Shown piece by piece: positions 14,348 through 24,770 of a stretch of DNA of 64,000 nucleotides (its first letter is position 1; the number at the start of each line of letters is the position of its first letter). Made by a program: the position numbers and the translations under genes. The stretch is from the NCBI GenBank assembly GCA_021324885.1, contig JAJPIF010000023.1, positions 124,001 to 188,000 of the forward strand, written 5' to 3'. The notes under the pieces were generated by a model. That model was not told where the DNA came from. It ran no database searches and saw only the letters and a program-made list of their open reading frames with translations. Source of the DNA: Pseudomonadota bacterium (GTDB lineage Bacteria; Desulfobacterota; Binatia; Binatales; Binataceae).

Positions 14348-15577
14348 TTACGCCAGCGCCGCCGGCCTTGCCCTCTCTGCTATCGGATGGGGCGACCATC
14401 GGTCTTCGTATTCGCCCCACAGGCCGCGAACATGCGGGATTACTTCGCGGGCGAAGAGGTCGGTGCTCCTGCGCACCAAATCCGGCGGCATCGAACCGAT
14501 CTGCAGCAGGCACATCAGATGACCGCAGCGCAGCGTCTGGACCGCTTCGATTAGACGTTCGCGGACGGTTTTGGGCGACCCGGCGATGATATAGCCCTGA
14601 TCGACCAGATCCTTCCAGCTCTTTTTCGCGCCGGCGTCGAAGCCGGCGGACTGATTTCCGATCTGGCCCAGAAAACCCGATTTGATACTGTCGAGCGTGC
14701 GATAACCGGGCGCTTCGGCAAACCCTGGATAGACGTGGAGGCAGCGGTTGAAGAAATAGTCGACATGCGGGCCGTACACGCGCTCCGCCTCGTCGTCGGT
14801 ATCGGCAACCGCAAGGATCTGCGCGAAGCCCAGACTGTAGGGATTGGGTTCCTTACCCAGCCGATCCAGTGCGCGCCAGTAGCCGTCGGTGACTCGGCGT
14901 CCGTGCCGATATCCAAAAAATGACAGGTACGAGTACTGGTATCCGTTGCGGCCGCAGAAGTCCCAGGTTTCGATCGATCCGCCGCCGGGAATCCAGATCG
15001 GTGGATGGGGCTGTTGCAGCGGTCTGGGCCACAGGTTCACATAACGCAGCTTCGTGTACTTGCCGTTGAAGGAGAAGATTTCGTTGGCCGTCCACGCTTT
15101 GACGATCAGGTCGTGGGCCTCGTAGTAGCGTTCGCGCAAAGTGGCTGGCGGCTCGCCATAGCAGAAGTTCGTATCCATCGAGGTGCCCACCGGAAACCCG
15201 GCGACCAGCCGCCCGCCGCTGAGCACGTCGAGCATCGCGAATTCCTCCGCCACCCGAATCGGCGGATTGTACAGCGCGATCGAATTACCCAGCACCACCA
15301 GATTGGCCCTGCTCGTGCGCCGCGCCAGCGCCGCCGCCATGATGTTGGGCGACGGCATCATCCCGTAGGCGTTCTGATGGTGTTCGTTGACGCCGAGGCC
15401 GTCGAAGCCGGCGCGGTCGGCAAATTCCAACGCGTCGAGGTATTCGTTGTAGAGCTGATGGCCGAGCTTCGGATCGTAGAGTTGGCGCGGGATGTCCACC
15501 CATACGCTGCGGTACCTGCGCTTGAAGTCGTCGGGCAGGAATCGATACGGCATCAAATGGAACCAGGTGAACTTCAT
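14348..15577 (-). CDS. LLM-class flavin-dependent oxidoreductase (luciferase-like)
   Basis: The 409-residue protein is a luciferase-like monooxygenase-fold enzyme using reduced FMN or F420. It opens with MKFTWFHLMPYRFLPDDFK and shows GVNEHHQNAYGMMPSPN, LVVLGNSIALYNPP, the loop EFAMLDVLSGGRLVAGFPVG, and IAGSPKTVRERL near the C-terminus, all class features. Its substrate is unknown; relatives oxidise alkanes, terpenes, alkanesulfonates or aromatics. The frame runs open far upstream, but ATG 15577 is preceded by GAGGTAA and begins where the family begins. It diverges from a YqeY gene and lies near epoxide hydrolase, SDR and isomerase genes, suggesting catabolism. Confidence 0.88.
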   Translation of the reverse strand: MKFTWFHLMPYRFLPDDFKRRYRSVWVDIPRQLYDPKLGHQLYNEYLDALEFADRAGFDGLGVNEHHQNAYGMMPSPNIMAAALARRTSRANLVVLGNSIALYNPPIRVAEEFAMLDVLSGGRLVAGFPVGTSMDTNFCYGEPPATLRERYYEAHDLIVKAWTANEIFSFNGKYTKLRYVNLWPRPLQQPHPPIWIPGGGSIETWDFCGRNGYQYSYLSFFGYRHGRRVTDGYWRALDRLGKEPNPYSLGFAQILAVADTDDEAERVYGPHVDYFFNRCLHVYPGFAEAPGYRTLDSIKSGFLGQIGNQSAGFDAGAKKSWKDLVDQGYIIAGSPKTVRERLIEAVQTLRCGHLMCLLQIGSMPPDLVRRSTDLFAREVIPHVRGLWGEYEDRWSPHPIAERARPAALA

Positions 15578-15706
15578 CGGCTTACCTCGATTTGCGTGGC
15601 GTCGCGCTCGCAAGCTGCCAGCCAAGTATGGCCCAGCCGTCCGCGTCCGTCCATTGCTGGGCGCGGCGCTTTTGCCTGGAGGCGGGGAAGCGGTATCGTT
15701 AGGAAC

Positions 15707-16268: not shown

Positions 16269-17432
16269 ATGGCACACGGCCCGGCAGAGAAATTCACCAT
16301 CGCGGTTCCTGATGAGGTGCTGGCGGATCTGCGCGAGCGCCTGGCGCGCACCCGGCTGCCAGGCGAGGTGCGGGACTGCGGATGGGATTACGGCACCAAC
16401 CTGGCCTATCTCAAGGAACTGATCGAGTACTGGCGCACGAGTTATGACTGGCGCAAACACGAGCGCGAGCTCAACGCGTTGAGCCATTACAAGGTGCGGA
16501 TCAACGATTGCGCGATCCACTTTATCCATCAGCCAGGTGCCGGTCCCAATCCGACGCCGCTGCTGCTGCTCCACGGATGGCCGGGATCGATCGCCGAATT
16601 CCAGCGGATTATCCCGATGCTGACCGATCCGGCGCGCCACGGCGGCAACGCGCGCGACTCGTTTACCGTGGTCGCGCCTTCGCTGCCCGGTTATGGCTTT
16701 TCCGACGATCCGCAGGTGCGCGGGATGAAGGTTGAGCCAATCGCGGACCTCTTCCACGAGCTGATGGTCCAGGTGCTGGGCTACCGGCGCTTCGGCGTGC
16801 AAGGCGGCGATTGGGGAGCAATCATCGCGTCACGCATCGGCCATGCTCATACCCGCGACGTGATCGGCGTCCATCTGAACATGGTTGCGCTGGGACCGGC
16901 CGAGGGTCGCAAAGCGCTGGGCAACGATGCGGAATCCAGGAGATTCCTTGAGGAGATGGCCAGGTTTCGCGCCGAAGAAACCGGCTATCAGCAGATCCAG
17001 GGCACCAAGCCCCAGACCCTGGCTTACGGCCTTAATGACTCACCGGCGGGCCTGGCGGCATGGATCGTGGAAAAGTTCCGGACCTGGAGCGATTGCGGTG
17101 GCGATGTCGAGAGCCGCTTCACCAAAGATCAACTGCTGACCAACATCACCATCTACTGGGTAACCCAGAGTATCAACTCCTCGATGCGCCTGTATTACGA
17201 AGTCAGGCACAGTCCGTATCGCCTGGGCCCGGGGGAACGGGTCGAAGCGCCTACCGGTATCGCGTTGTTCCCCAGGGAACTGATAAAACCTCCGCGCGCA
17301 TACGCGGAGAAGGCCTACAACATCAGGCGCTGGACCGAGATGCCGCGCGGCGGCCATTTCGCGGCAATGGAAGAACCGGCGCTGCTGGCCGACGAAATCC
17401 GCGCCTTCTTCAGGGAAGTCAGGCCGGATTGA
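16269..17432 (+). CDS. Epoxide hydrolase, EHN-type alpha/beta hydrolase
   Basis: The 387-residue protein has the N-terminal EHN lid region (KFTIAVPDEVLADLRERLARTR, about 8-30, and DWRKHERELN) seen in microsomal-type epoxide hydrolases, then the alpha/beta core. The oxyanion-side HGWPG is at 102-106, the nucleophile Asp at about 181 in GGDWGA, and the catalytic His at about 363 in RGGHFAAMEEP. These open epoxides to diols through an ester intermediate. ATG 16269 follows AAGGAG; longer in-frame starts lack a site. The substrate is unknown, but the neighbouring LLM, SDR and isomerase genes hint at a lipid, terpenoid or steroid. Confidence 0.9.
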   Translation: MAHGPAEKFTIAVPDEVLADLRERLARTRLPGEVRDCGWDYGTNLAYLKELIEYWRTSYDWRKHERELNALSHYKVRINDCAIHFIHQPGAGPNPTPLLLLHGWPGSIAEFQRIIPMLTDPARHGGNARDSFTVVAPSLPGYGFSDDPQVRGMKVEPIADLFHELMVQVLGYRRFGVQGGDWGAIIASRIGHAHTRDVIGVHLNMVALGPAEGRKALGNDAESRRFLEEMARFRAEETGYQQIQGTKPQTLAYGLNDSPAGLAAWIVEKFRTWSDCGGDVESRFTKDQLLTNITIYWVTQSINSSMRLYYEVRHSPYRLGPGERVEAPTGIALFPRELIKPPRAYAEKAYNIRRWTEMPRGGHFAAMEEPALLADEIRAFFREVRPD

Positions 17433-17528
17433 AATCTATCGATCTGAACTTCCCTGGCTGAAGATACGGATTCCCGGCGCGGATCAGCCGCAAGCCGCTG
17501 ACGTTTTGATTTTCGCCGACCGGCGCCC

Positions 17529-17906
17529 TTATTTCTTGAAGCCGTGCCTGTTGCCGGGGCCCCAGTAGGCGCGCATCTCGAGCACCTTACCCTGATCGTC
17601 GAAGCGGAAAATATCGATAACCTCGATCCTTTTTTCGCCGGCCGGATCGAAGCAGGCCGAAAACGCGAACGCCGCGTAGTTGGCGGCCGAGCGGATCTCG
17701 CCTTGCAGCCGCAGCTTCGCTCCCGTCCTCATCACCTGCGTATAGAAGTCCCGGATCGCCGCGCTTCCCCTGATCGGCGGTGTTCCCACCGGATCCTCCA
17801 CGGTGGCGTTGTCGGCGTAAAGCGCAACGGCCAATTCCGGATCCCTTTTGTCGAATGCGGCGATGTAATCGTGAACCGCACGAACCATTTGTTCCTCGCT
17901 CGCCAT
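17529..17906 (-). CDS. Ketosteroid-isomerase-like protein (NTF2/SnoaL fold)
   Basis: This 125-residue protein resembles bacterial delta5-3-ketosteroid isomerase along its whole length: YADNATVEDPVGTPPIRG, VIDIFRFDDQGKV and MRAYWGP. Tyr14, Asp38 and Asp98 fall where Pseudomonas putida isomerase has Tyr16, Asp40 and Asp103, so the oxyanion hole and base look intact. Such enzymes shift the double bond of 3-keto-5-ene steroids to the conjugated 4-ene. Start ATG 17906 is preceded by GAGGTGA; a TTG 18 bases upstream is less likely. The gene follows an SDR dehydrogenase by 31 bases on the same strand. Another NTF2-like function remains possible. Confidence 0.8.
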   Translation of the reverse strand: MASEEQMVRAVHDYIAAFDKRDPELAVALYADNATVEDPVGTPPIRGSAAIRDFYTQVMRTGAKLRLQGEIRSAANYAAFAFSACFDPAGEKRIEVIDIFRFDDQGKVLEMRAYWGPGNRHGFKK

Positions 17907-17937
17907 CGCGATCACCTCAACCAACCAGGGAATTGTT

Positions 17938-18708
17938 TCAGGACGCCCGGCCTACGATGGGGCGCGAAGGCATCGCCTGCGGTCCCGAGGGGCGCACTTC
18001 GACCACCTGTCCCGCCAGCCGATCGTCGTGAATGAAATTGAGCACCACGTCCGCGATCCTCTCCGGCGAAATAAGGCTCCCCGGCTTTACCGACTTGAGC
18101 TCCGCCCTTTTGCGGCCCTCGATCATCCGCGACACCATGGGCGTGTCCGTGATGCCGGGGCACACGGAATTAACGCGGATCCCGTCCTTGTGCCAGTTCA
18201 CCAGCGAGTAGGTCAGGTGGACGACGCCGGCCTTGGCGGCCGCATACACCGGGTCCAGCGGCATTGGATAAAGCCCGGCCATCGAAGCGGTGTTGACGAT
18301 TACCCCGCCGCCGCGCTGCTTCATCAGGGGATACGCCAGGTGGCATCCGAGGATTACCGCCTGGAGATCGACGTCGAGCACGCGGCGCCAGACCTCCAGC
18401 GCGACTTTGGGGAAACCCGGCGGCGGCAGGGCGATGCCGGCGTTGTTGTACAAAATGTCGAAGCGGCCGAGGCGGGAAATCGTGGCCTCCATCGCCGCGC
18501 CCATCTGTTCAGCATTGGTAACGTCGGCCCGCGTGAATGCCGCGCGCACGCCCTTGTGTTCAATCAATCTGACGCTTTCCTCACCCATCGGGACGTCGAG
18601 ATCGACTACCATGATCGAGGCGCCCTCCGCCGCCAGCCGCAGCGCCGTGGTGCGTCCGATCCCCGAACCGCCCCCGGTGATGAGTGCAACTTTACCTGCT
18701 GGATCCAT
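17938..18708 (-). CDS. Short-chain dehydrogenase/reductase (classical SDR)
   Basis: The 256-residue protein is a classical SDR. The cofactor loop TGGGSGIG is at 11-18, NNAG at 87-90, and the catalytic Ser141, Tyr154 and Lys158 are in NTASMAG and YAAAK. Asp35 after the second strand (VVDLD) favours NAD over NADP. The C-terminal substrate region is typical (CPGITDTPM). It oxidises or reduces a secondary alcohol or ketone. It is transcribed together with the isomerase-like gene downstream, so a 3-hydroxysteroid or similar alcohol is an attractive but unproven substrate. Confidence 0.9.
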   Translation of the reverse strand: MDPAGKVALITGGGSGIGRTTALRLAAEGASIMVVDLDVPMGEESVRLIEHKGVRAAFTRADVTNAEQMGAAMEATISRLGRFDILYNNAGIALPPPGFPKVALEVWRRVLDVDLQAVILGCHLAYPLMKQRGGGVIVNTASMAGLYPMPLDPVYAAAKAGVVHLTYSLVNWHKDGIRVNSVCPGITDTPMVSRMIEGRKRAELKSVKPGSLISPERIADVVLNFIHDDRLAGQVVEVRPSGPQAMPSRPIVGRAS

Positions 18709-23639: not shown

Positions 23640-24770
23640 ATGGATTTTGGTTTCAGCAAAGAGCAGGAGATGCTGCGTGAAAGCGCGCGATCCCTGCTGG
23701 AAAAGGAATGCCCGTCAACGGTGGTGCGCAGGTTGATGGAGGACGAAACCGGCTATTCACCCGAGTTCTGGAAAAAAATGGCGGAACTCGGCTGGATAGG
23801 GCTGATCGTTCCCGAGGCTTACGGCGGCGCCGGACTGAATTACATCGACCTGGTCGTGATTCTCGAGGAGATGGGCAAGGTGGTGCTGCCCTCGCCCTTC
23901 GTATGGACCGTTTTGTTCGGCGAAGCCATCAATCGCGCCGGCAGCGAAGCGCTCAAGCAGAAGCTCCTGCCCAAACTCGCGGCCGGTGATTTGATTGGCA
24001 CGCTGGCTTACCTGGAACCGTCAGGCGACTGGGATTTGGGCGCGATCTCGATGCCGGCGAGGAAAAACGGCAAGGATTTCGTGCTCGACGGCACCAAGCT
24101 TTACGTCAACGACGGCCATGTCGCCGATTGGATGCTGGTCGCCGCGCGCACCGGCGGCCAGGGACTCGACGGTATCACGCTGTTCGCAATCGATCGCGCG
24201 CGTGCCGGGATTACCGTCAACAAGCTGAAAACGATGGACCAGACGCGCAAACTGGCCGAGGTCGTGTTTTCCAACGTAAAAGCGGGCGCCGACGACGTAG
24301 TGGGAGAAGTCGGACAGGGCGCCAAACCGCTGGGCGAGGTGATCGATCGCGGCAAGGTTGCGCTCTCGGCGGAGATGGTCGGCGGAGCGCAGAAAGTACT
24401 GGACATGTCGGTCGATTACGCTAAGGTACGCGAGCAGTTCGGACGTCCGATCGGCAGTTTCCAGGCGATCCAGCATAAATGCGCCAACATGCTGATCGAC
24501 GTGGAGAATGCCCGCTCGGTCGCCTATTACGCAGCTTGGGCGGTCAGCAACGAAGTCCCCGACGCGTCGTTGGCCGCGGCGACCGCCAAGGCGGCCGCCT
24601 CTGACAGCTATCGGCGTGTGGCTGGCGAAGGAATCCAGGTGCATGGCGGAATCGGGTTCACCTGGGAGCACGACATGCATCTGTATTTCAAGCGAGCGAA
24701 ATCGACTGAATTCACTTTTGGTGACGCGACTTACAATCGGGAACTCGTAGCCCAGCTCTTCGGACTATAA
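23640..24770 (+). CDS. Acyl-CoA dehydrogenase family protein
   Basis: The 376-residue flavoprotein opens MDFGFSKEQEMLRESARS and ends with the family segment GIQVHGGIGFTWEHDMHLYF. The middle (LAYLEPSGDWD, TLFAIDR) matches the FAD/substrate-binding beta domain, and YAKVREQFGRPIGSFQAIQH is the usual C-domain helix. The Glu of WEHD is the likely catalytic base, as in the FadE/ChsE-type enzymes that act on steroid side chains or branched acyl groups. It introduces the alpha-beta double bond in an acyl-CoA. RBS is AGAGGAAGG. Such enzymes often form heterodimers, but no partner is adjacent. Confidence 0.9.
   Translation: MDFGFSKEQEMLRESARSLLEKECPSTVVRRLMEDETGYSPEFWKKMAELGWIGLIVPEAYGGAGLNYIDLVVILEEMGKVVLPSPFVWTVLFGEAINRAGSEALKQKLLPKLAAGDLIGTLAYLEPSGDWDLGAISMPARKNGKDFVLDGTKLYVNDGHVADWMLVAARTGGQGLDGITLFAIDRARAGITVNKLKTMDQTRKLAEVVFSNVKAGADDVVGEVGQGAKPLGEVIDRGKVALSAEMVGGAQKVLDMSVDYAKVREQFGRPIGSFQAIQHKCANMLIDVENARSVAYYAAWAVSNEVPDASLAAATAKAAASDSYRRVAGEGIQVHGGIGFTWEHDMHLYFKRAKSTEFTFGDATYNRELVAQLFGL

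Follow-up and report, generated by a model that had tools for sequence, protein, structure and literature searches.

A candidate SDR-ketosteroid isomerase module in an uncultivated member of the Binataceae

The genome of an uncultivated Binataceae bacterium (designated G000) encodes an isomerase whose sequence, predicted fold, catalytic residues and phylogeny support its assignment as a true member of the delta5-3-ketosteroid isomerase (KSI) family. The gene is located in a 64,000-nucleotide stretch of DNA (the window), immediately downstream of a gene for a classical SDR. Our preferred reading, which we regard as evenly balanced between right and wrong, is that the two genes form a two-gene operon that serves as a stand-alone module for 3-hydroxy-5-ene to 3-oxo-4-ene conversion. 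This module, probably acquired horizontally, would function outside a complete steroid pathway, and the nearby genes for an epoxide hydrolase (EH), an LLM-type monooxygenase and an acyl-CoA dehydrogenase would be unrelated to it.

In the proposed scheme, the NAD-type SDR would be the oxidizing partner, acting on a steroid-shaped 5-ene alcohol and turning its 3-hydroxyl group into the ketone of a 5-ene-3-ketone. Asp38 of KSI would then move a proton from C4 to C6, with Tyr14 and Asp98 holding the dienolate oxyanion, and the product would be a 4-ene-3-ketone. Such a module could be used for partial transformation, for detoxification, or to feed sterols into a different route.

Table 1. Features of the SDR-KSI locus and nearby genes in the window
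Feature	Position	Strand	Basis
Ketosteroid isomerase (KSI, delta5-3-ketosteroid isomerase family), 125 aa	17529..17906	-	Sequence, AlphaFold2 model, Foldseek, catalytic columns
Classical SDR, 256 aa, upstream of KSI	17938..18708	-	Pfam adh_short 180 bits; residues; G001 ortholog
SDR-KSI intergenic gap, 31 nt, with Shine-Dalgarno-like GAGGTGA ahead of KSI ATG	17907..17937	-	
Microsomal-type (EHN) epoxide hydrolase (EH), 387 aa	16269..17432	+	EHN Pfam 125 bits; 335 bits to 5f4z
LLM-type monooxygenase, generic, neighbour outside the SDR-KSI module	14348..15616	-	Bac_luciferase 130 bits
Acyl-CoA dehydrogenase, generic	23640..24770	+	Profile and structure-chain scores

The EH, SnoaL/KSI-like and SDR reading frames named in the original prediction are all present (Table 1). 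SDR and KSI are co-directional, with SDR first and its stop codon 31 nt from the KSI ATG, and plausible ribosome-binding sites precede both starts (GAGGTGA for KSI, GGAG for SDR); the two genes may be co-transcribed. A scan of the locus for sigma-70 promoters returned zero sites, and a terminator scan gave a result near chance level. The GC content and third-position GC content of KSI (0.60 and 0.76) and SDR (0.65 and 0.81) are near the values of neighbouring genes, so a compositional sign of recent import is absent.

The best sequence relatives of the window KSI in the PDB are all Comamonas testosteroni KSI (tKSI; 101 bits, E 3e-28), followed by Pseudomonas putida KSI (pKSI) and then by the SnoaL-like protein 6p3l, which appears in the Foldseek listing as Mycobacterium hassiacum KSI. 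An AlphaFold2 model of the protein (pLDDT 96.4) has a predicted cone/NTF2-type KSI fold that closely matches both tKSI and pKSI. In Foldseek, its top matches were all tKSI, with a TM score of 0.92 and 43-46% identity. The window protein shares with tKSI (PDB 8cho, 1qjg, 1ocv) its length, fold and Tyr55, and its Tyr14, Asp38 and Asp98 align with the catalytic Tyr14, Asp38 and Asp99 of that enzyme, as had been claimed from the sequence. It differs from tKSI in being one residue shorter before the Asp98 strand, in having Trp115 and Tyr30, as does the P. putida enzyme, and in being encoded in a genome without a steroid pathway. Relative to pKSI, Tyr14, Tyr30, Asp38, Tyr55, Asp98 and Trp115 correspond to Tyr16, Tyr32, Asp40, Tyr57, Asp103 and Trp120. 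For these alignments, the P. putida sequence was verified against the database, and the C. testosteroni sequence agrees with the PDB-search alignment across residues 3-123.

Tyr14, Asp38 and Asp98 are invariant across 26 aligned sequences. The G000 genome has 26 SnoaL_2 matches, and none of the 25 others keeps the Tyr/Asp/Asp set, with the reservation that the weakest paralogs could be aligned only roughly; the occurrence of the set in the window KSI alone places this observation well above chance. Homology gives strong support to KSI chemistry, and the catalytic residues by themselves fall short of proving isomerase activity on 5-ene-3-ketosteroids. KSI-fold proteins with conserved residues and without demonstrated isomerase activity exist, and on this precedent the window protein might bind a steroid or hopanoid-like ligand and be non-catalytic or weakly active. 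We consider this unlikely, as the three catalytic residues and the supporting Tyr55 are all invariant across a 15-sequence alignment.

The closest relatives of the window KSI (50-57% identity) are encoded on plasmids of Novosphingobium and Sphingobium (e.g., SARO_RS19700 and IM701_RS15520). They are annotated as steroid Delta-isomerase in the two Novosphingobium records inspected and as nuclear transport factor 2 family protein in the Sphingobium record. Their neighbours include MaoC, SDR, thiolase and acyl-CoA dehydrogenase genes, two CoA-transferase (IpdA/IpdB-type) subunits and, in the Novosphingobium records, a FadD3 gene that exceeds the curated cut-off. Gene sets of this FadD3/MaoC/thiolase/acyl-CoA dehydrogenase type serve HIP (C/D-ring) degradation. 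Comparable surroundings are seen for chromosomal KSI relatives from a Sphingomonadales bin, a Hellea bin and an Oceanospirillales strain; in five gammaproteobacterial relatives KstD-type genes occur a few kb from KSI, and in one more relative KSI adjoins a Rieske oxygenase, the one that we took as the KshA query. Expression of a ksi homologue on testosterone has been reported for N. tardaugens (PMC6895838).

In the phylogenetic tree, the window KSI and its 72% identical ortholog from a genome of the same genus (G001) join the KSIs of the sphingomonad HIP clusters in one clade (support 93/95). The latter are set among MaoC, thiolase, acyl-CoA dehydrogenase or FadD3 genes, whereas the window KSI is alone with the SDR. 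KSI was detected in only two of 41 genomes of the family, both of this genus, and in two of 395 across the phylum sample. Given this distribution and the sphingomonad relatives, horizontal acquisition is the simplest reading; the gene was probably acquired in this way, and its kin are the KSIs of steroid-degrading bacteria.

The SDR carries the motif TGGGSGIG, an Asp36 of the NAD type, and Ser142, Tyr155 and Lys159. The Ser/Tyr/Lys triad described in the original prediction is therefore intact, with its numbering (141/154/158) off by one. In place of the Asn of the full Asn-Ser-Tyr-Lys tetrad, the protein has Asp112. This Asp is conserved within the subfamily, and an SDR with Asp112 may still be active. 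Members of the subfamily (52-63% identical) occur in many genomes of the family that lack KSI, in varied neighbourhoods that include LLM genes and, once, an EHN-type epoxide hydrolase (named by eye); with so wide an occurrence apart from KSI, a steroid-specific history is absent. Against the 3beta/17beta-hydroxysteroid dehydrogenase 1hxh, the window SDR scored 104 bits, compared with 144 bits for the best generic SDR. The proposed pair of a dehydrogenase and a delta5-isomerase stands insofar as KSI lies next to an SDR, and does not extend to steroid specificity of the latter, whose subfamily is spread through the family. We also considered the SDR as a recognized hydroxysteroid dehydrogenase and rejected this assignment: generic SDRs score higher, the subfamily is family-wide and the tetrad is altered. 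The family-wide subfamily (window 17938-18708, L031-L040) has a VRPSG-like C-terminus instead of the usual xxGG.

Horinouchi reportedly described in 2010 the genes for 3alpha/3beta-hydroxysteroid dehydrogenase and delta4(5)-isomerase of C. testosteroni TA441. The logic is the same, a 3-hydroxysteroid dehydrogenase with a separate isomerase. The two systems differ in that the window SDR is not specially close to 3beta/17beta-hydroxysteroid dehydrogenase and its surroundings are without a steroid gene region.

Genome G001 provides a view of the pair in a second setting. Its KSI ortholog and an 82% identical SDR ortholog are on the same contig, approximately 10 kb apart, and the gene directly beside its KSI encodes another SDR (37% identical). 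No other strong matches to window genes were found in approximately 67 kb of the contig around KSI. That KSI and this SDR stay near each other in two regions with little else in common points to a functional link without proving it, and the SDR-KSI pairing is plausible. The different SDR beside the G001 KSI counts against the module reading, as do the SDR subfamily members without KSI elsewhere, the Asp at the tetrad Asn position and the absence of KshA, HsaD and IpdA. The surroundings of the G001 KSI (L022, L042; G001:C4:8000-47400) contain amidohydrolase, CaiB CoA-transferase, EthD, LLM and several SDR genes (by eye) and have the look of a catabolic island.

These data bear on a different substrate for the same chemistry. 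KSI might be a real allylic/dienolate isomerase that in nature acts on a beta,gamma-unsaturated ketone other than a steroid, such as a terpenoid or another polycyclic compound, made by the SDR. The absence of ring-degradation genes from the genome, the generality of the SDR subfamily in the family and the position of the G001 orthologs among amidohydrolase, CaiB CoA-transferase, LLM and SDR genes (by eye), away from any steroid cluster, all fit this possibility. We nevertheless find it doubtful, as KSI sides with the enzymes of steroid clusters both in its steroid-binding pocket residues and in its nearest relatives in the tree.

The original prediction had joined EH, LLM and the acyl-CoA dehydrogenase with the pair in a steroid or terpenoid pathway. 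EH has its predicted nucleophile Asp181 in the motif GGDWG and His363, and resembles the bacterial microsomal-type epoxide hydrolases (5f4z, 4i19) in its EHN domain, Asp nucleophile and His; it differs from them in being a neighbour of the SDR-KSI module to which it is unlinked. As a member of the operon, EH was rejected: it is convergent to SDR-KSI, and the 67 kb searched around the G001 KSI gave no EH match. LLM scored far under the cut-off of its best NCBIfam subfamily and is divergent from the pair, with YqeY between them on the other strand. Both genes lie beside the pair in the sense of being within approximately 4 kb, and neither is in the same unit. The acyl-CoA dehydrogenase, which had been called FadE/ChsE-like, proved generic: it scored 218 bits against the IpdE2 model (cut-off 450) and 134 bits against chain 4x28_D, which we take to be a ChsE-type enzyme, versus 188 bits for the best generic match. 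With generic genes in other transcription units and no EH near the G001 KSI, the proposed pathway of these three genes was not upheld, and they look like ordinary neighbours unrelated to the SDR-KSI module.

In genome G002, which lacks KSI, an EHN-type epoxide hydrolase (by eye) adjoins, divergently, a 63% identical SDR relative (L032:166-1362; G002:C19). This arrangement and the presence of all four genes within approximately 4 kb of the window would agree with EH, LLM, SDR and KSI forming a cluster for degradation of a terpenoid (epoxide). The orientations of EH and of LLM, beyond YqeY, run counter to such a cluster, and tblastn searches of 67 kb around the G001 KSI with window reading frames detected no EH relative and, for LLM, nothing beyond weak matches (25-31% identity). 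We therefore regard a terpenoid cluster as highly improbable.

We also searched the G000 genome, whose assembly is 96% complete, for other steroid pathway genes. Searches with the KshA-like query at 1e-20 and with an IpdA-type CoA-transferase subunit at 1e-30 gave no match, and the best HsaD match (62 bits) is alpha/beta hydrolase background. One extradiol dioxygenase is a distant HsaC match (187 bits versus a cut-off of 450). One KstD-like gene (376 bits versus a cut-off of 788) is equally close to 4-oxocyclohexanecarboxylate dehydrogenase and adjoins a lipid-transfer-protein-type thiolase (382 bits versus a cut-off of 469; L054:6241-10764; G000:C14). The same C14 locus contains a small DUF35-like protein (by eye) and an amidohydrolase-like gene. 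As KshA, IpdA and HsaD were not found and the only matches for KstD and HsaC are distant, the data do not support a complete 9,10-seco pathway in this genome, and we rejected it as a candidate.

It is very unlikely, in our estimation, that the locus belongs to a full pathway of steroid catabolism whose genes are dispersed over the genome. The KstD-like gene with its thiolase and DUF35-like neighbours, together with the extradiol dioxygenase, speaks in favour of this arrangement. Against it stand the missing KshA, IpdA and HsaD at this level of completeness and the wider presence of KstD-like genes, which reach similar scores throughout the three genomes of the genus and occur in G002, where KSI is lacking. 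A search for SSU rRNA in the assembly gave no match, and the literature yielded no papers on the degradation of steroids by Binatota.

Steroid-type genes do occur elsewhere in the family. Genome G010, of another genus, has a 12-kb 9,10-seco-type cluster (L055:5812-18082; G010:C18:77811-90081) that comprises KshA, LuxR-type regulator, HsaA, KstD, SDR, FAD enzyme, SDR, HsaC-like, nitronate monooxygenase-like and HsaD-like; the regulator and the nitronate monooxygenase-like gene were named by eye. The KshA-type Rieske oxygenase scored 417 bits, and each of its three solved relatives reaching that threshold is a KshA chain. Scores were 285 bits for the HsaA-like, 600 bits (cut-off 788) for the KstD-like, 288 bits for the HsaC-like and 214 bits for the HsaD-like protein, and the FAD enzyme reached 757 bits to NF005511, a model shared with an N. 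aromaticivorans pNL2 gene. The scores below cut-offs may reflect models built from other lineages. No KSI was found in the G010 genome. In G006, a further genome of the family (assembly 53% complete), a KshA-like gene (53%) adjoins a KstD fragment (G006:C304:7426-9046), and an HsaD-like gene (318 bits) is located at C274:855-1679.

These analyses tell apart a well-supported claim, that of a real KSI-family enzyme that was probably borrowed, from an over-reading, that of a steroid or terpenoid pathway around it. An SDR-paired KSI that belongs to no steroid pathway offers a clean case in which to ask about the natural substrate of such modules, and the G010 cluster makes steroid degradation in the lineage directly testable. 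The complete steroid pathway has been reported only in Actinobacteria and Proteobacteria (PMC5790920). We suggest, as a tentative possibility toward which we remain more sceptical than convinced, that an uncultivated lineage, from beyond the phyla known to degrade steroids, took up a hydroxysteroid dehydrogenase-isomerase module as a free-standing unit for sterol transformation, while sister genera hold a divergent KshA-HsaA-KstD-HsaC-HsaD cluster. If this is true, steroid use would be broader than the two phyla in which the complete pathway was found.
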